A DNA stretch of 64,000 nucleotides from NCBI GenBank assembly GCA_963924555.1, contig OZ004584.1, forward strand, positions 7,997,001 to 8,061,000. The letters are read 5' to 3'. The position numbers were made by a program, and so were the translations under genes. This DNA comes from Crambe crambe (taxonomy: Eukaryota > Porifera > Demospongiae > Poecilosclerida > Crambeidae). This document shows positions 25,506-59,791 of this stretch, piece after piece. Position 1 is the stretch's first letter. Every line of letters begins with the position of its first letter. The notes beneath the pieces are model-generated. The model had not been told where the DNA came from and searched no databases. It worked only from the letters and a program-made list of their open reading frames with translations.

Positions 25506-27315
25506 TCAGGATACCTCCCAGAGATCACTGAGAGTGAAGCCTTCAGGAAGCTTCTCTATGGCTAGGCCCAGCTCCTTGTTGAAGACAGGCTCTCTATCCT
25601 TGGATTGCTTGGGGTTTGCAAAGTAGGCCTGAGATTAATAATACCAGGGTTAGGATAAGCCTGTCAAAGGATAATCTGAAAGTGCCTTTGTACAAAAAAT
25701 GTATTCTCTTCTCCTTTATACATAGGAGGTTCCAGAGTTAGAAAGTTGACTAGCCTAGGGGGAACAGCTAATGCATCTAGCCTAGGGGGTAGTCACTGAC
25801 CGCCAATGCGTCCATTTTTGAAGTGTCTTGTGTGTCTATGTTATCAGCATTCTCATCAGCTGCTTCCAACCCATCAGGTGCCTAGAATTATATCAGGAAA
25901 TTCAGTTCTTTTTTGGTTTTTTCATAACCCCTTGGGGGGAAAATACAGTGGAATGTCTTATTTTTTGGGGAACCAGATAATAGTGTCCTGATTAGATACA
26001 TGGGTGTCCTAATGGGAGACAGAAAGAGTGTCCTGTAATAATAGCAAGGGCCTATGTGACAATAATTATCAGACTTTATCATGCATAAACACAAACCTCT
26101 TCTATGTTATATTCCACTCCAAAGATAGGACTGGCCTGATATGCTTGGTAGAGGCTATGCACCTCCTGCACAATATCCTTCAGTTTCTCTGCAGGGTCCA
26201 CTCGAAAACCCAAAACAAACCCTCCACTGTTGGCTGTGGTCTCCATCACCATTGCCACACCAAATTTGGAGTCCCTGATCTTTACAATTCCCTGAAGTGC
26301 ACAAAAATAAATGCTTCGATTCTCTTTAAAGAATCTACTTTTCTATTCGGAATGGGAATATACATATTACCACTGCCATTATCATGTTTTGCAGTGAAAC
26401 ATGATAATGAACCAAATCTCCCAAGTATTCTACCATTTATTTCTCCAACTTTTCATAAAAAGAGGGAATGGTCTCTTGATTCATTTCCCTTTTCATGAAA
26501 AGAGGGAATGGTCTCTCATCTTACCATTTGGAGGTAAGGGATGCTGACATTGAAGCTACTATTCATATTGGAGTGCCAGACGACTCTCACATTAGTGATA
26601 TACATGGTGCCAAGGTTACCCTGCATGGGAAATATCTGTCACATGCAAGTCATGTGATGATCATGATATCATACCTGGTCACTGCATAAGTTCCACACTC
26701 CAGGTAACTGTAATAGAATAATAGAAATATGGCCAGAAGCAGCTATTCATATTCAGGCTGTTGATATTAAATTGCATAATGCGTACCTTTGAATAAACTT
26801 GCTCTAGCGGAAGAACCTTCAGTTCTTTGTTAAAGATGAGGGCGCCTCTTAGCTTGAGCTCTCTGTACAGCTTCGAGGTCTGATATGCTCTGTGCACGGA
26901 CTTCACTCCACTAAAAAGCCTTGGGCTATTTGGTTGCTACAGAATAATCAGTATGGCAGAACTACATTTTTAAAGGACAGAAATAAACTCACTAGATTTG
27001 TGAAAACAAATTCAAACTGAGATTGGTCCAACTTGGTTAGAACGTAAAGTGCTTCTGTGGCCCCACGAAGTTTCTAAACATAGACTGACCTCATGAAACT
27101 AATACTTCTTCAAGCAAAAAAAAAAAAAAAACTCACAGAATTTGCATGTTTAGTGTTGATATCAGTAATGGTTTTGTACCCAATAGCTGAAATAAGAAAA
27201 AGGAGAGAGTAGATCATCAACATTTTGCATTTATATGACGTACAAAGGTTGATCCTGTTGTGTTTTGAAGATACCCACATAATTCTCAGATTGGTAATAT
27301 ACAATTTCCCTATAA

Positions 27316-27346
<31 letters not shown>

Positions 27347-27625
27347 AAATAAGGTAAGGCGGGACAATTACGAGGGTGGGAAAATTCCGTCATTTTTGAT
27401 AATCTTTATTTCTTCAGAATTGCCCCACCTTTGTAATTGCCCTGCCTTACCTTTTAATACGAGAGACTCATGTGTCATGGGAGGGCCAATATAATTGACT
27501 ATTATACCTTGCTCTCCATTATTTCCTTTAGTATCTTCTACTTCTGGCAAACTGTCGATCAATACCTCTCCTGGAATGGTCTGGAGGTGGCTGTAGAAGT
27601 GATATTCATTGACAAGCTTATTCAT
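25506..27625 (-). CDS. BBS5: Bardet-Biedl syndrome 5 protein (BBSome subunit)
   Basis: Ten exons on the minus strand, 5' to 3': 27625-27508, 27309-27244, 27186-27137, 27073-26993, 26936-26787, 26707-26675, 26620-26525, 26291-26097, 25881-25801, 25628-25506. They give 330 residues in phase; the human protein has 341. BBS5 is the phosphoinositide-binding PH-like subunit of the BBSome, which moves membrane cargo in cilia. Diagnostic segments are [72 protein letters not shown] then [39 protein letters not shown], and the C-terminal [23 protein letters not shown]. Both PH-like (DM16) repeats are present. The ATG at 27625 is the first in frame and gives an N-terminus about eight residues shorter than human; a further upstream exon is possible. 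One donor is GTCAGT and one GTTTGT, both usable. The gene is head-to-head with TMEM67. Confidence 0.94.
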
Positions 27626-27815
27626 GGCAAACAAGTGTTGTATACCTGTTGGAAATATCAAATCTTATTTCTCTGTCCTGCCATACTGGGTGAGGAGGGT
27701 GAGACATGATATCCACGTCTACTCAGTCTATATCTACGAACTGTTTATTACCACACCCCCTTTTTACCGCTGCCTAGTAACGTTTCTAAATAATACCCAC
27801 CACCACTGAGTATTA
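27626..27815. promoter_or_regulatory. 190-bp bidirectional promoter between BBS5 and TMEM67
   Basis: The whole space between two divergent ciliary genes is 190 bp, so their core promoters and 5' UTRs must share it. It holds the X-box-like motif at 27769-27781. No TATA box in a sensible position was seen. Confidence 0.75.
27769..27781 (+). promoter_or_regulatory. Candidate RFX X-box
   Basis: GCTGCC-T-AGTAAC fits the X-box consensus RYYNYY-N(1-3)-RRNRAC at every position. It lies 34 bp before the TMEM67 ATG and about 145 bp from the BBS5 ATG. RFX factors activate ciliary genes through such sites across animals. A single match in 190 bp can arise by chance, so this is a candidate only. Confidence 0.5.
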
Positions 27816-34761
<6,946 letters not shown>

Positions 34762-35297
34762 CTGCTATAATTCTTAGGGATTAAACAATTTTATGACGCT
34801 GACCATTATGCTACTAGTATCAGAATACCATCAACTTCATTCTTCTTCTTTTTGTCTTAACTGTGCATGCACAATAGTGGTAGCAGCATTATATAGTATG
34901 TAGAAATGAGCCACACACCCTGACTTATGAAGAAGAGCTTTCTGGTGCTACTGTTTCCTTCAAATATGCTGTTCCATAGCAGCACAGGAGAAACTGGAAG
35001 ATATCTGGTGGTCCGAAGTAGTCTGTGGAATGGCACTAAAATGAGTAAAATGGTGAGCCAATCCATAATTGTAGAATCATGGCAGAAGACCTGGGGAAAT
35101 AATAAGCTCGGAAGCCTTAAATATTGACCACAAAGAGTTAGTGATTGATGATTTTGTGATCTGTAGTTGGCAACTACTTGTAATTGTGAGTGAAGAATGA
35201 AACAGGCCCATGCATCGCTCCCGGCCGGCCCGCGCCCGAGGCGCGTCAGCAAGAGATCACGTGCATGGTGATCCTTAAGTAAAGTAGCTAGCTAGCA
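34762..35297. other. TMEM67 3' flank and upstream region of DUF1647 gene A
   Basis: No gene is seen. A CACGTG E-box at 35258-35263 sits in a GTCAGCAAGAG..TCACGTGCATGGTG block that is conserved upstream of gene B (39310-39337). The stretch TGTTCCATAGCAGCACAGGAGAA (about 34972-34994) resembles the DUF1647 coding segment around CCSIAA and may be a relic. Confidence 0.5.
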
Positions 35298-36356
35298 ATG
35301 ATGAAGTTTAAACTTGTTGGTATATTTTTAATAGTAGCTACTATTCTTGGAGTTTTTTATATCATCAGACCGAGAATTGATCTATCATATCGGCCCAAAC
35401 CTACCCGCACTTCCTCCCCTCTCTCGCATAGCTCGCTGTCCAGCAAGGCTACTCCTGTGTCATCATGTTGTTCCATAGCAGCAGGAAGGAAAGTCGCAGA
35501 TCTCTGTCCTAGCAACGAAGACCTTACAAAGGTGCAGCAGCATTCAATAAATGGCACCTGCAGTTGTACAGATTATATATTATGCAAGCTAGTGATGGTG
35601 ATAGGATTTTCCAGCAACCACTTTGAAGAAAGCAAAGACTATTTCGGTTCTGTTCATGCTCATTTGCCACACACTAGGATCATAGTTTATGACATAGGAC
35701 TGACTGCATTTCAATCTAGAACTGTAAAATCATACTGCAATACAGAAGTCAGGAAGTTTAATTTCAGCAAATACCCGCCTCATACTAAAAACCTGGGAAC
35801 ATATGCTTGGAAACCTTACGTTATTAAAGAAGTGAGTGAAGAGTTCGAGGTATTCACTTTTTTCGATGCTAGTATCCGCATTGGACCTTCATTTATACAG
35901 ATCCTCCCTAATCTGCTCAAATTTCCACTCATACCCTGTTCCAGACTAGGTAAAGGGCATCAAGTGTTCAGGAGTACACATGATGGCATGTTAAAGTACT
36001 TCGAACTGAACATGTCTAGAGAAAAACTGGTAAACTTATCTCCAACATACGAATCTGGCTCACTTATTTTCTGGGCTAATGACTTTATCAAAGAACAGTT
36101 TCTGCCAAAATATGTGGATTGTGGAGCACATATTGAATGCATAGCTCCAAAGGGTGCTTCAGTATGGGGGTGTAACTTTAAAAGGCTTAATGCAGGCTGT
36201 CACAGATTCGACCAATCAGCTTTGAATGCAATACTCTATCGTTACTTCAGTGAATATATAAAATCCCTTGGTAGAATGTCAACTAGTTGTGGGATCACAT
36301 GCCGACGTAGCCCAACAACTAAGTATGCAAAATCATTATGTATCAATAACTATTGA
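35298..36356 (+). CDS. DUF1647-like type II membrane protein, copy A
   Basis: A single exon of 352 aa. A short cytosolic end and one hydrophobic anchor (LVGIFLIVATILGVFYII, residues 6-23) are followed by a Pro/Ser stem and a lumenal domain. The domain has CCSIAAGRK, DLCPS, CSCTDYILCKLVMVIGFSSNHF, IIVYDIGLTAFQ, YCNTEVRKFNF, YAWKPYVIKEV, TFFDASIRIG, THDGML, GSLIFWANDFI and GCHRFDQSALNAILYRY. This order fits the uncharacterised DUF1647 family, whose members look like Golgi glycosyltransferases; DAS in FFDASIRI may serve as a DxD-like site. No substrate is known. It is about 97% identical by eye to copy B. It lies 536 bp after the TMEM67 stop, within the duplicated unit. Confidence 0.8.
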   Translation: MMKFKLVGIFLIVATILGVFYIIRPRIDLSYRPKPTRTSSPLSHSSLSSKATPVSSCCSIAAGRKVADLCPSNEDLTKVQQHSINGTCSCTDYILCKLVMVIGFSSNHFEESKDYFGSVHAHLPHTRIIVYDIGLTAFQSRTVKSYCNTEVRKFNFSKYPPHTKNLGTYAWKPYVIKEVSEEFEVFTFFDASIRIGPSFIQILPNLLKFPLIPCSRLGKGHQVFRSTHDGMLKYFELNMSREKLVNLSPTYESGSLIFWANDFIKEQFLPKYVDCGAHIECIAPKGASVWGCNFKRLNAGCHRFDQSALNAILYRYFSEYIKSLGRMSTSCGITCRRSPTTKYAKSLCINNY

Positions 36357-37297: not shown

Positions 37298-37938
37298 TTT
37301 CTCTGCTGTCTTTGAAGCCAGTGCATGTGCATTTGAGGGACAGGCATATAGCACCTAATTAGCTAATCGTATGAGTAACATTCCAGTCTCCTTCACTACA
37401 GTACAGATGCTCTTAATCAGGACCCCTGAAATGAGGCCACCCCTGTATTCAGGACAGTGATGACACCAGCCCTAAAGGTATCTGCAAGGTCACAGGTGTG
37501 ATTGTTGGTAAGTGTGTAACCTTGAAAGTGCAAGACAAATGTCATGGGTAAAAAGCCATCACAGCAAAGAAAAACTTGTTTGCAGACTTCCAGCAGTTCG
37601 AATAGCAAAATTAATGTGCCCCGTTATTCTGACAACTTCTCTACAAAGGACAAAAGACTTGGGTCCCAAGTGTGTCCACAGAAATAAATTATCAGGGTCA
37701 TTCCTAATTAGGTTGTAAGGAGTCAAGGAAGCATGTGCAAAGTTGTAACAAACATATGATGTTGATGTTTGTGTCTTCTGCTGTTATCCAGGGATGTATA
37801 TACGTACAGATAGCTATCATAATGACATTATGTACCAATTAGATCTTTGTTCTTGAGGGAGGGGGGGGAATCTTGTTCGTTTTCGTAGTGTTTATAATTT
37901 ATCTGCTTCACATACATAAGCTTATCTCATGCGTGCAG

Positions 37939-38740
37939 ATGATAATCAAGGCCTTTCTGAGACAGTGATGAAAACCTATGAAGCTATGAACCATTTTCTG
38001 ACCTCTTTCTTTGAAAGGGTATGTTATACACATACATACATAGGGTAAACAAGATGTTGGCTCGGTTGCCTCCTCTCAGAATATTCAAGGATTGGATTAT
38101 TGCATCAAGAACAAGTTGCTTCCAGAACGAGCAGTCGGAATCGAGCTCCATGATCCAGAAACAAAGTTATTCCTTTACAGAGGTCAGTGACTGCATTTTA
38201 CCAGAGAGAGGGAACTCCTCTTCCCTTTGATATCTCTTTCCTTCTAGATTCTGGGCTTTCGTTCGATCAGCTCTTGTTTTATGGCCACTGCTGGAACCTG
38301 TTTCAACTGGACCTGCTGGACCTTTTATCACAGAACTACATCCTAGCAGCTTATATCATCTCACTGGTGAGTGCCAAAACTGTAAAGGCTCCTAATTATG
38401 AAAGCATTTTAGGCCATGGGCCTTGCCCCAGGCCTTGTTTGTTCAAGTACGAAGAATCATGATGTGTCATTTACCAGAAGCATCTTGGATAAAGTGATTT
38501 TTTGCCTGGCTACATCCACTTTAGTACCACCCACTTTCACCCATAATCTGCTTGGACCTATATACTTGACTTGGGTAGGCATTTGTGTGTGTGTGGAATT
38601 TCAACTCTCAGGCCTAGATCATTTGTTGTTGTTGTTGTTATTGTTTGTGTGGTGTGTAGGTAATCAACCTGATTCGTGATGCTCTTGGTAGGTGGAATCT
38701 TGCTAGGAAAACGCTGGTGGACAACAGATTCCTAATATGA
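37939..38740 (+). pseudogene. Duplicated last four TMEM67 exons without the rest of the gene
   Basis: Exon copies at 37939-38018, 38080-38182, 38248-38366 and 38660-38740 match 33945-34024, 34085-34187, 34244-34386 and 34681-34761, with splice sites conserved. The third copy lacks in-frame segments (the IFAVV block and part of IITY), which removes part of the last membrane helix. No upstream meckelin exon except the broken relic at about 36900 is present. It is best read as a pseudogene fragment made by tandem duplication. Splicing from the true gene into these exons as alternative 3' ends is conceivable. Confidence 0.85.
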
Positions 38741-39360
38741 CTGCTATAATTCTTAGGGATTAAACAATTTTATGACGCTGACCATTATGCTACTAGTATC
38801 AGAATACCATCAATTTCATTCTTCTTTTTGTCTTAACTGTGCATGCACAATAGTGGTAGCATAATTATGGTAGTATAGTATGTAGAAATGAGCCACACCC
38901 CCTGACTTATGAAGAAGAGCTTTCTGGTGCTACTGTTTCCTTCAAATAATTTCTGATAGCTTAAACTTCAGGTGTTGTCATACTGTTCCATAGCAGCACA
39001 GGAGAACCTGGAAGACATCTGGATGCCCTAATGGTCCGAAGTAGTCTCTGAAGATCATCCAGCAATATTATGCAAGCAGTATTCAATGGCTCTAGAAATG
39101 AGCAGTGGAATGGCACTAAAATGAGTAAAATGGTGAGCCAATCCATAATTGTAGAATCATGGCAGAAGAAATATGCTCGGAAGCCTTAAACATTGACCAC
39201 AAAGAGTTAGTGATTGATGATTTTGTTGGCAACTACTTATGGGTGAAGAATGAAACAGGCCTCCCACACTGAATACATTGCTGGCTCCCGCGAGGCGCTG
39301 TAACGTAGGCGTCAGCAAGAGTCACGTGCATGGTGCAAAGATCCTTAAGTAGCTAGCAAC
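38741..39360. other. Intergenic between duplicated TMEM67 tail and DUF1647 gene B
   Basis: Collinear with 34762-35297, plus an insertion of about 100 bp (38950-39110). It retains the GTCAGCAAGAGTCACGTGCATGGTG block with CACGTG at 39323-39328. No coding sequence. Confidence 0.6.
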
Positions 39361-40422
39361 ATGCTAGCAATGATGAAGTTTAAACTTGTTGGTATTTTTA
39401 TAGCTACTATTCTTGGAGTTTTTTATATCATCAGACCGAGAATTGATCTATCATATCGGCCTAAACCTAGCCGCACTTCCTCCCCTCTCTCGCACAGCTC
39501 GCTGTCCAGCGAGGCTACTCCTACTCCTGTGTCATCATGTTGTTCCATAGCAGCAGGAAGGAAAGTCGCAGATCTCTGTCCTAGCAACGAAGGTCTTTAT
39601 ACAAAGCTTTCAATATATGGCACCTGCAGTTGTACGGATTACATATTATGCAAGCTAGTGATGGTGATAGGATTTTCCAGCAACCACTTTGAAGAAAGCA
39701 AAGACTATTTCGGTTCTGTTCATGCTCATTTGCCACACACTAGGATCATAGTTTATGACATAGGACTGACTGCATCTCAATCTAGAACTGTAAAATCATA
39801 CTGCAATACAGAAGTCAGGAAGTTTAATTTCAGCAAATACCCGCCTCATACTAAAAACCTGGGAACATATGCTTGGAAACCTTACATTATTAAAGAAGTG
39901 AGTGAAGAGTTCGAGGTATTCACTTTTTTCGATGCTAGTATCCGCATTGGACCTTCATTTATACAGATCCTCCCTAATCTGCTCAAATTTCCACTCATAC
40001 CCTGTTCCAGACTAGGTAAAGGGCATCAAGTGTTCAGGAGTACACATGATGGCATGTTAAAGTACTTCAAACTGAACATGTCTAGAGAAAAACTGGTAAA
40101 CTTATCTCCAACATACGAATCTGGCTCACTTATTTTCTGGGCTAATGACTTTATCAAAGAACAGTTTCTGCCAAAATATGTGGATTGTGCAGCACACAAA
40201 GAATGCATAGCTCCAAAGGGTGCTTCAGTATGGGGGTGTAACTTTAAAAGGCTTAATGCAGGCTGTCACAGATTCGACCAATCAGCTTTGAATGCAATAC
40301 TCTATCGTTACTTCAGTGAATATATAAAATCCCTTGGTAGAATGTCAGCTAGTTGTGGGATCACATGCCGACGTAGCCCAACAACTAAGTATGCAAAATC
40401 ATTATGTATCAATTATTATTAG
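39361..40422 (+). CDS. DUF1647-like type II membrane protein, copy B
   Basis: A single exon of 353 aa, nearly identical to copy A from the anchor to the C-terminus (FFDASIRIG, CHRFDQSALN, SPTTKYAKSLCI). Differences cluster in the stem: TPTPVSS against TPVSS, and GLYTKLSIYG in place of DLTKVQQHSING. All indels keep the frame, which argues that the copy is or was recently functional. Start: the first of three in-frame ATGs (MLAMMKF); the third matches the copy A start context. Confidence 0.8.
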   Translation: MLAMMKFKLVGIFIATILGVFYIIRPRIDLSYRPKPSRTSSPLSHSSLSSEATPTPVSSCCSIAAGRKVADLCPSNEGLYTKLSIYGTCSCTDYILCKLVMVIGFSSNHFEESKDYFGSVHAHLPHTRIIVYDIGLTASQSRTVKSYCNTEVRKFNFSKYPPHTKNLGTYAWKPYIIKEVSEEFEVFTFFDASIRIGPSFIQILPNLLKFPLIPCSRLGKGHQVFRSTHDGMLKYFKLNMSREKLVNLSPTYESGSLIFWANDFIKEQFLPKYVDCAAHKECIAPKGASVWGCNFKRLNAGCHRFDQSALNAILYRYFSEYIKSLGRMSASCGITCRRSPTTKYAKSLCINYY

Positions 40423-42803: not shown

Positions 42804-43783
42804 TTATATTTTGGGATGATTTATCCAACCAATGCAATCTTCTGGTGTGATTTCAGCAAAACTCATTAGTAATAGTGTTTCTATATCATTGATATGCTGC
42901 ATAGTATTCTCATATGATTTCAAACTTGACTTGACCTTTGAGAAAGCTTCTTCAATTGGGTTGAAGTCGGGAGAATAGGGAGGAAGGAATAAAATAAGTG
43001 AGCCAATATCTTCTATAGATTTCACAGCTTCAGGGACATGATGAACTGTACAGTTATCTAAAATTACAACTGAGTGAGGATTCCTGCCATTAAAAGGCAT
43101 AAGATGGGGTAATAAGTGAGTTTGAATAAAGTCATAAAATTCACCTCCATCGGTTGTCCCTTTCACCATTTTCACATCTAGAAGTCCAGCTACTGACATG
43201 CATGCAATGGCAGATACTCTTTCTCCTCGAACCAACATCTTATGACTCTGCAGTGGTTTTCCACGCCTACTGTAGCCATACTTCCTGATGAGATTTCTAG
43301 TATCGGCACCAGTTTCATCAACAAAAATTAGTGTATTAGATGAGAATGAAGATACATCTAGTATATATTTTGTCGTAAGAATGTATCCTGTTGTAATGCT
43401 TTAATTTGTAGCTTCTGTCGAGTGAATCCACTTTTAGACAAGTATTTGCATATGGTAGACACATCAACAGAAATGGCAAGCGAGTCCATCAATTCAGTTT
43501 TAATTTCTCTCAAATATATACCTGGATTATCAATTACTAACTGTAGAATCAATAGTTTAGCTGGGTTGGTTAATTTGATAAATGATCTTTCTGGATATGG
43601 TCTTTTCCTTACTTCCCCAGTTTCATGGAAAAGTTTGAGGGTTCTATAAATAGTTGACTTATCTACACAAAGATTTTTTGCAATATCTTCAGCAGACTTC
43701 CCCATAGCATCATGCTGCCATACCACCCTCCATCTCATATCTTCACTATAAGCATCAGTTCTGCTTTTTTCACAAGAGTACAT
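42804..43783 (-). pseudogene. IS630/Tc1-mariner superfamily DD34E transposase with one frameshift
   Basis: The N-terminal part (43783 down to about 43356) has a helix-turn-helix region (RWRVVWQHDAMGKSAEDIAK, DKSTIYRTLKLF) and a second one (LREIKTELMDS). A one-base deletion in an A run near 43366-43372 shifts the frame. The C-terminal part then reads the first catalytic Asp in LIFVDETGAD, the second in VILDNCTVHH and the Glu in LPPYSPDFNPIEE. I count 34 residues between the last two, hence DD34E. The reading frame is otherwise open to 42804, so inactivation looks recent. Terminal inverted repeats were not resolved. Confidence 0.85.
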
Positions 43784-44071
43784 TGTGTATTTGAAATTGG
43801 AGCCATTAATAATAGCACGTGATGTTAGCGCATTGCGCGTGTAGCGCTCGCTAAATTAACTGCAAAGACCAGGAAATTCCCTGTAGTGATCGGACATTAT
43901 GATTAGAGTGGGCGTGGTCAGGCAAAAATATTTTCCGCGCGCAAGCGCGCGGATATTGTTCTACCTAGATACCTCTAGCTCTGCATTCAAATCCTAGTTA
44001 CGCCCTTGATCTATATGGCCATAATGGCCGGCTAGCTAGCTAGCTATAATTAATTGGTCACGAGATCCGAG
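43784..44071. other. Transposon end and upstream region of DUF1647 gene C
   Basis: Includes a short GC palindrome CCGCGCGC-AA-GCGCGCGG at about 43937-43954 and a GCTAGCTAGCTAGC run just before gene C. The E-box block seen before genes A and B is not conserved here. Confidence 0.5.
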
Positions 44072-56138: not shown

Positions 56139-57088
56139 ACTTACCTATTGTCAATTCTTGGCATGAGAGCATGTGCTTCCATATGATGGATTGGAATGAG
56201 AGGTTTCCTTTAAAAAAAGAGAGAATTTCTATAAATAGCATTAGAGGGTGGAAATTTAATATTAAGTCCTTGCTCTACAGTATTCACAAACTTGGACTCT
56301 TGGGCCAGTTTCCGAGCAAACTGAATTCCCTCGTGGAGACTTGGTTTCATTCCTGGTCCCACTGTCACAGCGATACCACCCACCTCATCTAAGCTCCGCC
56401 CACTTCTCTCCAGTGCCATTTGAGTGACTCTCTCTATGTTGTCACGGTGAAGGTCAGCTGCTTTGAGGGGCATAATCCCACCAGTCCTGCAATAACATAA
56501 TTGAGTAGTTAGTCCAAAAATGGTACCTGATGAGTCTAATTCTATAGCTATTATTAAATGTTGATTTGACCATTAAAACAATACCAGTAGATGCTTGGCC
56601 AAATTATTACACTGACATTAGTAATCATAGCCATATCATTGTAATCATACTGACTGTCCATATGATCAAGTCCATACTTTCATCACTCACTTTAGGTGTT
56701 CCTTGGTCTGTGAGTGAAGAGCCTCGCCGAGCACATGTCCGAACTCATCAATCACAGCAACCCCAGTATCATCGCAACTGCTCTCAATCCCGAGAAGAGT
56801 TAAGGGTCTTTCGGAGTATTTGCCTGTATTACTCTTCATCTTGTTCATTATGCCATGCCTCCTGGGGAGGCAGTGGGCTTGGTCAACATTGGATGGAACC
56901 TTATTGATGGGAGAAGGGGAGAGGTTTTGAGGAGGAGGGGTGTGGTTTCTCCCTGTGGATACTTTAGTTTCATTCCCACTGCTTGAAGCAGCAACTGTTG
57001 AGCATACAAGAGCCTGCAACTGCGGGAGTACGATCGAGCTTCGGCCTTGTACAAATACAGACCCGCTTAAAACTGGCCTTGAAAGCAT
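54896..57088 (-). CDS. OSGEPL1: tRNA N6-adenosine threonylcarbamoyltransferase, mitochondrial
   Basis: Exons 5' to 3': 57088-56691, 56486-56292, 56207-56145, 56058-55789, 55701-55631, 55539-55397, 55219-54896. They give 487 aa in phase. The start MLSRPVLSGSVFVQGRSS has Arg and hydroxyl residues without acids, which suits mitochondrial import. Family motifs are complete: LLGIESSCDDTGVAV, GGIMPLKAADLHRDN, AVTVGPG, the metal-binding HHMEAH, LLCSGGHCLL, NFSFSGM, ETVVCHITMRTHRAMKYC, VSGGVAANKYL and the metal-binding Asp in CTDNGVMIAW. It transfers threonylcarbamoyl from TC-AMP to A37 of ANN-decoding mitochondrial tRNAs. It lies tandem to the degenerate paralogue (175 bp away) and head-to-head with RETSAT. 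Confidence 0.93.
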
Positions 57089-57184
57089 GACTAGGGCTTG
57101 AAGGTCCACGTGGCCTCAGGAGTGGGCGTGACCGTCGTTTACACAGCTACAGCAGCTCGGTAATCACATGACGGTGAATTTAAG
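57089..57184. promoter_or_regulatory. 96-bp divergent promoter between OSGEPL1 and RETSAT-like gene
   Basis: The start codons are only 96 bp apart, so promoter elements must be shared or overlap. A CACGTG E-box lies at 57107-57112 and TCACATGAC at about 57162-57170. No TATA box. Confidence 0.6.
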
Positions 57185-59791
57185 ATGTGGCTCTGGCTTG
57201 GTATCGTGTTGGTGGTGCTTTCCCTCCTGCAGCTGCTCTATGGGTTCGCCAAGCAGCACCTCTGGCTCATTTTCGGAGGCCCGGGAAACGTTCTTAATCC
57301 CTTCCATGAGCTTGCAAGGTCAGTCCATCATGCCTATCCGTTCATGCGCAGTAGAGGATGTGGACACACCATTTTGTCCTCTGTAGAGAGGTTGTCTGTA
57401 GGTTATTTTGTGTAGAGTGTAAATTGTCCTTTGTTACCTCTTTCGGAGAATCCTTTATCAAAGCTTCCACTGTATTATATTGTGTACATAATTTCACACA
57501 TTGATCCAGGAAACGAAAAGGTGCTGCTATAGTGACCAGTCGAAGAGAGCGAGACAAAGTCCTCAAGCAGAATTTCTCTCAGGAGAAGGTGCCAAAAGAT
57601 CTAAATGCCATTGTGGTGGGCAGTGGGATCGGAGGGCTGAGTGTGGCAGCCATCTTGGCCAAGATGGGCAAGAAGGTGTTGGTTCTGGAGCAGCACGACC
57701 AAGCGGGAGGGTGTTGTCACACTTACGTGGAGAAAGGGTTTGAATTTGACGTGGGTATCCATTACATTGGAGAAATGAAAGAGGGATGTATTAGCCGAGT
57801 GTTGATCGACCAACTGACGGAGTCTGGTTTAGAATGGAAGCAGTTGGAAGATGTGTACGATACCGTGATTCTTGGTTTTGGGGAAGAAAATGGAGATAAA
57901 AAGCGCTCTTTTCCAATCCATTCTGGACGGAAAGAGGTGGTCGAGTCACTTAAAAAGTGCTTTCCTGATGAAGAAAAGGCTATTGATAAGTACTTTGATA
58001 TTTTGAAGCAAGTAAAGTCGATGGAAGTTGGTATGGCAATGTTGAAACTCCTCCCACTATCCATTTCTTGTTGTCTGGTTTCAAGTGGTCTTATTCTTAA
58101 GCTCTTTCCAACGCTTCGTTATTTCCAGCGGTCTCTCACTGACATCCTAAATGAAGTGACCGACAACAAGGAACTGAAGGCTGTGCTTGCTTATTCCTAT
58201 GGAGATTATGGTGAGTCACTATGGAGATGATAGTCAGTTTCTATGGAGATTATATGCTATTCCATGAAATTTTGGCTCTCTCTCCCTCTCCATCTCCTTC
58301 CCTCTCTCTCCCTGCCTCTCCCTCCCCCCCCCCTTACAGGCACCGCTCCCAAAGAGGCTCCCTTTGGTATGCAGGCTCTCCTGACAAACCACTTCGCATA
58401 CGGAGGTTATTACCCAATAGGAGGCTCCAGCGAAATCGCCTTCAACATCATCCCCACCATAGAGGCTGCAGGGGGGCGTGTCCTGGTACGAGCACGTGTC
58501 ACTGATATTATCATGGACGAAGACTACAAACGTGTGATAGGTGTGAATGTTAAGCAAGGCCACACCTCTTATGAGATCATAGCTCCAATGGTGATATCAG
58601 ATGCGGGTATCTTCAACACTGTCAAATCTTTACTCCCACCTCAAGCTGTCAAGAAGTACAAGCTCAAAAGGTCACTTTTATCCAAAGCCCGTCCAGGTTT
58701 GGCACTCATGTCTGTCTTCATTGGCTTGGACGGGACCAAGGAAGAGCTGGGTTTGAAGGCATCGAATATTTGGGCCTTTAAGGATGACAATCATGATGAG
58801 AATTTGGAAACCTATCTCAACACAGATCTCGAAGATGTTGGTAGGATTGCTCCCCCGCTCATGTTCCTCTCGTTCCCCTCGACTAAAGACCCCACGTACA
58901 ATGATCGTTACCCGGGGAAGTCCACCTGTGCCATTGTAACGGTCACACCATACGAGTGGTTCAAACAGTGGAAAGATGAGAAGGCGTTACATCGGGGAGA
59001 TGATTACGAGGGATTCAAGAACTCCATTGGTGAACTGATGTGGCAACAGGTACTTCTTATTAATATACTACATTACATTGGAACCTCCGAGTAAACTGGG
59101 ACCCAGCCTTTTGTCCTTCGTAGAGAGGTTGTCCTCTTTTGTATATCACTTAGATTGTCCTTTCGTTACTTAATCACTCAACTGCTTATGGTAACTGTTA
59201 CACAAAAAAATTATAGGAAGTCGAACCCCAAATAACGGACACACTTGAGACCCAGCCTTTCATCCTTTTGTAGAGAGGTTGTCCTCTTTTATAGTTATTT
59301 AGTATAGAGTGTTATATAATTATGCAAAGGTACTTCTAAATTGTCCTTTGTTTAGAGGTTTATCCTCTTTCAGATGTTCCGCTGTACCTCTTTGCCGTCT
59401 TCTTTCAGTTTTACCCTCCAAGTAATTTTTCACTCTCTCCATCCTCCCCTAGGTGTTAGAGATGTTTCCCCAGCTGGAAGGTCGAAGAGAGTACTTTGAA
59501 GTTGGCTCTCCCCTCTCTAATATCTTTTACCTGAATACAGTGAAGGGGGAGGTGTATGGTGCCGATCATAACCTCCCTAGGTTCTCCATGGAAGCCATAG
59601 CCAATTTACGGCCAGACATTGGTGTCCCGGGACTGTTTCTCACAGGACAGGATGTCCTGACGTGTGGGTTCTCTGGAGCTATGCATGGAGGTCTGCTTTG
59701 TGCCATGTGCATCACCAAGAGAAACCTCGTGGACGATCTCACTAAGCTGACCAAGAAGGTTAGGAAGGAACTTAAATCCAAGAAAGAATAA
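57185..59791 (+). CDS. RETSAT: All-trans-retinol 13,14-reductase-like FAD/NAD oxidoreductase
   Basis: Exons 57185-57318, 57510-58210, 58340-59049 and 59453-59791 give 627 aa in phase (human RETSAT 610). An N-terminal membrane anchor (MWLWLGIVLVVLSLLQLLYG) precedes the dinucleotide-binding motif IVVGSGIGGLSVAAILAKMGKKVLVLEQH and then GGCCHT, GIHYIGEM, GGYYPIGGSSEIA, FPSTKDPTYNDRYPGKST and the C-terminal TGQDVLTCGFSGAMHGGLL. RETSAT saturates the 13,14 double bond of retinol in the ER. In a basal animal the natural substrate may be a carotenoid or another polyene; that is unknown. The start gives the anchor directly. The stop codon overlaps an AATAAA (59787-59792). Introns 1 and 3 hold copies of the dispersed GACCCAGCC repeat. 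Confidence 0.9.
57358..57478. repeat. Dispersed repeat copy in RETSAT intron 1
   Basis: TTTTGTCCTCTGTAGAGAGGTTGTC and a terminal CTTCCACTGTATTATAT match the family seen at 12535 and 59083. Confidence 0.7.
59083..59375. repeat. Two adjacent dispersed repeat copies in RETSAT intron 3
   Basis: Two head-to-tail copies, each with ACCCAGCCTTTYRTCC and GTAGAGAGGTTGTCCTCTTTT. The second ends near CAGATGTTCCGCTGTACC. Confidence 0.8.

Follow-up and report, generated by a model that had tools for sequence, protein, structure and literature searches.

Genes at the locus

The window analysed was a 64-kb stretch of DNA (G000:C6:7997001-8061000) drawn from a 143-Mb genome of 119 contigs. It contains two ciliary genes, BBS5 and TMEM67 (meckelin), and the features around their start codons are listed in Table 1. 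A first-pass annotation of this DNA had placed the two genes head to head, and this order was borne out: BBS5 is encoded by the minus strand, TMEM67 by the plus strand.

Both gene identities proposed earlier were also confirmed. For BBS5, six exon matches to PF07289 were obtained, and all 10 introns of the spliced 11-exon model were of the GT–AG type. Residues 8–338 of the 339-aa model aligned with residues 7–339 of 6xtb_E (E 1.9e-139), a solved entry of the Bardet-Biedl syndrome 5 protein. The homology with known BBS5 (BBL5 family) thereby extends over the full length. In exon 1, VWQDREIRFDI aligned without gaps with LWEDRDVRFDL of 6xtb_E; exon 2 begins at 27590. For TMEM67, the Meckelin domain PF09773 was detected in three of the four exon ORFs tested, at 108.2, 99.2, and 47.3 bits against a curated cut-off of 25 (E-values 1e-12 to 4e-31); no PF09773 match was obtained for the first exon, which is short. 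An in-frame TGA lies upstream of the TMEM67 ATG at 27807–27809, and the frame is open from 27810.

A direct duplication was observed at the end of TMEM67 (33863–35838 and 37857–39904, about 4 kb apart), the pieces of which are 94–100% identical. It comprises the last TMEM67 exons and a downstream gene, with DUF1647 in the first copy, and has left a partial TMEM67 copy downstream. Transposase-like ORFs with HTH_23 and DDE_3 domains, perhaps from a Tc1/mariner-type element, are located on the minus strand at 42807–43855, among ORFs that, on visual inspection, look similar to the DUF1647 gene (one copy tested).

Table 1. Features of the BBS5–TMEM67 locus (positions in the window)
Feature	Position	Strand	Description
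BBS5 gene	25506..27707	-	11 coding exons, 340 codons including stop; exon table, PF07289, solved-entry alignment
BBS5 intron 1	27591..27645	-	55 bp, GT–AG; contains ATG at 27625
BBS5 coding exon 1	27646..27707	-	MSHPPHPVWQDREIRFDISN; missed in the first-pass annotation
Start-codon gap, putative bidirectional promoter and 5' UTRs	27708..27815	.	108 bp
Forkhead-like TGTTTAT	27742..27748	+	from sequence
CACCC stretch	27751..27760	+	CCACACCCCC, from sequence; CACCC at 27754
X-box-like site GCTGCC-T-AGTAAC	27769..27781	+	reads GTTACT-A-GGCAGC toward BBS5
TMEM67 (meckelin) gene	27816..34377	+	ATG to at least the last PF09773-matching exon
Second, weaker X-box-like string	28084..28097	+	GTTGTCATGGTAAT; TMEM67 intron 1; 2 mismatches

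The interval between the start codons

The two genes had been described as sharing a 190-bp promoter with an X-box that fits the RFX consensus throughout. A short intergenic region holding an X-box-like site does exist, and neither the length nor the full fit could be retained. The 190-bp interval was wrong because its bounding ATG (27625) falls in BBS5 intron 1; BBS5 exon 1 lies inside that interval, and the actual gap between the start codons is 108 bp. Bidirectional promoters are defined by start sites within 1 kb; the distance available here is that between the start codons, which are divergent and 108 bp apart.

The letters and position of the motif given earlier, GCTGCC-T-AGTAAC at 27769–27781, were correct, and the site falls within the 108-bp gap; the TMEM67 ATG is 34 bp away and the BBS5 ATG 61 bp. 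The RFX X-box consensus is quoted as GTNRCC N0-3 RGYAAC (PMC10530576). The spacer of one base is within the range of 0–3. AGTAAC matches the RFX half-site perfectly (the GTTRCY monomer on the other strand), and GCTGCC has a mismatch at the second base of the consensus. Since the consensus is not symmetric, the mismatch count differs by direction: one toward TMEM67 and two toward BBS5.

A scan with RFX matrices had been proposed in the first-pass annotation. With the hand-set graded matrix described below, the site had an empirical p of 0.008 for a 108-bp stretch (2317 overlapping local background segments). In dinucleotide shuffles of the gap, one mismatch or fewer was reached in 97 of 5000. 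A site as good as this one is expected in about 1–2% of 108-bp stretches.

The exact string GCTGCCN{0,3}AGTAAC was found 35 times genome-wide, against about 47 (order-1) and 40 (order-2) expected from sums of per-spacer Markov-model values. The string is unremarkable, because its count is no higher than chance. The loose half-site RTNRCC was not enriched in the 64-kb window, with 372 found and a mean of 397 in shuffles. The letters of the site are not special by themselves; their placement in the gap is.

Two other motifs were considered in the gap. The forkhead-like match was rejected as a co-site, as 21% of background segments carry such a match. The CACCC stretch is of a type that we take to be KLF/Sp-like. 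KLF and Sp1-like motifs have been reported as enriched in Amphimedon promoters (PMC4773876).

RFX proteins and perfect X-boxes in the genome

The RFX DNA-binding domain (PF02257) gave five matches at three places in the genome, one on contig C12 and two on contig C18. Perfect palindromic X-boxes numbered 50 genome-wide, against about 10–18 expected (sums of Markov values). These counts include repeat copies, because perfect palindromes occur inside repeats. Flanks were retrieved for 15 of the 50 sites, and by eye at least 7 of these lie in repeated sequence, with L010, L012, and L013 sharing one repeat, L007 and L014 another, and L008 and L009 a tandem repeat. With several of them inside repeats, the perfect palindromes form a weak list of RFX targets and were rejected for that use.

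A reversed-pattern control (4 against 50 for palindromes; 4+5 against 21+14 for GCTGCCN{0,3}AGTAAC) was set aside because the reversed strings hold CpG, which is depleted here (observed/expected 0.36). Markov expectations, which are less favourable to X-box enrichment, were used in its place.

X-box-like sites at other ciliary promoters

Eight ciliary genes were chosen by Pfam family and not by motif: BBS9, BBS2, IFT20, TMEM231, B9D1, B9D2, IFT57, and CLUAP1. B9D1 and B9D2 are two B9 genes so read, and the start codons of all eight were read by eye. The best X-box was scored in the span between 150 bp upstream and 12 bp into the gene. The graded matrix used for this was derived by hand from the published consensus, once some of the sites had already been viewed. 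The eight promoters scored above the local background (Mann-Whitney 1.3e-5, Fisher 1.8e-5), the segments of which overlap one another and are not promoters.

The per-gene p was 0.05 or lower for half of the set (B9D1 0.005, BBS9 0.013, IFT20 0.019, TMEM231 0.039) and higher for the other half (B9D2 0.096, IFT57 0.127, BBS2 0.127, CLUAP1 0.132). On the same scale the BBS5/TMEM67 site had p 0.011 and scored above seven of the eight. The B9D1 site, GTTGCTAAGCAAC, has a 1-base spacer like that of the BBS5/TMEM67 site. The best sites of the eight promoters had 1–3 mismatches to the consensus, and none was perfect. A GTTRCY monomer was present within 100 bp in 5/8 ciliary genes versus 15.5% of background segments.

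When mismatches to the consensus were counted, the p value for the eight promoters was 6.8e-4 with spacers of 0–3 and 0.011 with spacers of 1–3. With a loose worm-type consensus the eight promoters did not differ from background (p 0.23); this consensus was dropped as uninformative, since 14% of background segments match it without mismatch. The X-box excess at ciliary promoters looks real, yet it varies with the scoring scheme.

Two more genes were observed outside the set. In a calaxin-like gene, the apparent start codon coincides with a perfect X-box, GTTGCCATGGCAAC, the ATG being at the centre of the palindrome (L019 1501–1514; L051 3961–3974). As it had been found via its own X-box, calaxin was excluded from the statistics on the set. 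The gene read as MKS1, a third B9 gene, carries ATTGCCATGGCAAC, similar to the calaxin X-box, near its 5' end (L050 2219–2232); it does not figure in the score table because its start codon could not be fixed.

Divergent neighbours of ciliary genes

The upstream neighbours of ten other ciliary loci were compared. An opposite-strand upstream gene was identified (Pfam above cut-off) at six of the ten, in four cases within 1 kb. The matching ORF starts less than 1 kb away in the pairs BBS9–NDUFB2-like, B9D1–MPLKIP, B9D2–protein kinase, and calaxin–NMT; in IFT20–DEAD helicase and MKS1–DHHC the matching exons are about 2 kb off. IFT57 has an opposite-strand upstream gene with DnaJ and F-BAR matches below threshold, CLUAP1 and BBS2 have an opposite-strand upstream ORF without an assigned family, and the upstream neighbour of TMEM231, with a molybdopterin-binding domain, is on the same strand. 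To our knowledge, none of the identified divergent partners belongs to a family recognised as ciliary. BBS5–TMEM67 is the sole ciliary–ciliary pair among the loci examined, but it was chosen for being so. Another divergent pair in the window, at about 56213–58227, consists of a minus-strand TsaD-like gene and a plus-strand FAD/NAD-binding oxidoreductase gene.

In Amphimedon, a head-to-head arrangement is reported for 45% of genes, and start sites within 1 kb for 11,379 genes (PMC4773876). Since divergent neighbours are frequent both here and in Amphimedon, the head-to-head layout alone weighs little. The number of ciliary–ciliary pairs expected by chance was estimated with Amphimedon-type numbers as about 5,690 pairs multiplied by the squared ciliary fraction. 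The estimate ranged from 0.14 (201 ciliary genes among about 40,000) to 2.3 (400 among 20,000), where 201 is the number of ciliary genes given as conserved between human and Salpingoeca rosetta (PMC10530576). A single ciliary–ciliary pair that was singled out post hoc makes no strong case for selection.

Interpretation of the BBS5–TMEM67 gap

On balance, the 108-bp gap is probably a ciliary promoter that is driven by RFX in both directions and contains one probable RFX site; binding, activity in both directions, and co-expression are its expected properties. The DNA between the two start codons would act as the promoter for both genes. An RFX-family protein, probably as a dimer, would bind 27769–27781, with a strong contact at AGTAAC and a weaker contact at GCTGCC. 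In cilia-building cells, the bound RFX would then raise transcription on both sides, of BBS5 leftward and of TMEM67 rightward. The RFX reading of the site is strengthened by the X-box scores upstream of the eight other ciliary genes, taken as a set.

The most likely origin of the pairing itself is gene density, since in a dense genome many genes come to lie back to back. BBS-5 acts at a different place of the cilium from the MKS complex, which includes TMEM67 (PMC4635004). According to the same source, bbs-5 of C. elegans interacted genetically with NPHP genes, but not with the two MKS-complex genes tested, tctn-1 and mksr-1 (PMC4635004). A functional reason for the BBS5–TMEM67 pairing is therefore not obvious.

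The genes could instead be chance neighbours with separate core promoters, the motif being a random near-match at which RFX is inactive. This explanation is rather unlikely, although several results agree with it: the frequency of non-ciliary divergent neighbours at the other ciliary loci, the high head-to-head share in Amphimedon (PMC4773876), the arithmetic expectation of about 0.1–2 ciliary pairs per genome, and the chance-level frequency of the exact motif. It fits poorly with the p of 0.008–0.02 for a site in a 108-bp gap and with the same X-box tendency at eight other ciliary promoters. It is distinctly unlikely that the X-box serves one gene only, or acts mainly through the single AGTAAC, with the other gene driven by CACCC-like general elements. 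Such an arrangement would agree with the single perfect half-site, and the weaker string in TMEM67 intron 1 could serve TMEM67 separately; however, both start codons lie within 61 bp of the site, and near-palindromic sites have no fixed direction.

An RFX-driven bidirectional promoter and an ancestral, selected ciliary unit are not mutually exclusive. In the latter, BBS5–TMEM67 adjacency and the X-box would date from early animals or their protist relatives, which we regard as very unlikely. RFX control of ciliary genes has been suggested to predate animals (PMC10530576), in line with such an origin. Against it, a search for BBS5 in prokaryote contigs (42 pattern matches) and for one TMEM67 ORF in viral contigs (38 pattern matches) confirmed no relative, and no paper in the literature collection searched joined TMEM67, BBS5, and "bidirectional promoter". 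It is likewise doubtful that a single RFX site jointly doses a BBSome part (BBS5) and a part of the transition-zone gate (TMEM67) in an arrangement that was selected and is lineage-conserved or older.

If the gap is an RFX-driven bidirectional promoter, two ciliary complexes are coupled through one small promoter. The link between RFX and cilia would then gain a compact test piece, in which a single site can be mutated within 108 bp and the output of two genes read. The wider pattern of X-box-like sites no more than about 150 bp from start codons would, if real, let RFX targets be predicted in this genome. If the RFX reading is wrong, the locus is an ordinary back-to-back gene pair.

Comparison with known systems

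The worm gene bbs-5 is listed among the X-box/DAF-19 genes as a named X-box target (PMC1794439), and its counterpart BBS5 flanks the site described here. RFX control through X-boxes, by DAF-19 in C. elegans and cRFXa in Salpingoeca rosetta, resembles this locus in having an X-box-like site near ciliary start codons. Unlike in those systems, the putative site here lies between two ciliary genes, and one of its half-sites is imperfect.

A further comparison is offered by Cep290, in an organism that we take to be Xenopus. Cep290 is a ciliary gene with a probable bidirectional promoter that is bound by multiciliated-cell factors (PMC5245798). Its partner gene is not named in the figure legend, whereas both partners are ciliary at BBS5–TMEM67. 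The compact genome of Amphimedon queenslandica is similar in its great abundance of short divergent intergenic regions; neither "RFX" nor "cilia" occurs as a term in the main text of that paper (PMC4773876).

Of the published cases considered, TMEM138–TMEM216 in vertebrates comes closest. These adjacent ciliopathy genes are described as sharing an RFX-linked regulatory element (PMC12148096). They are different genes, arranged head to tail with an interval of about 23 kb, whereas BBS5 and TMEM67 are head to head and separated by 108 bp.
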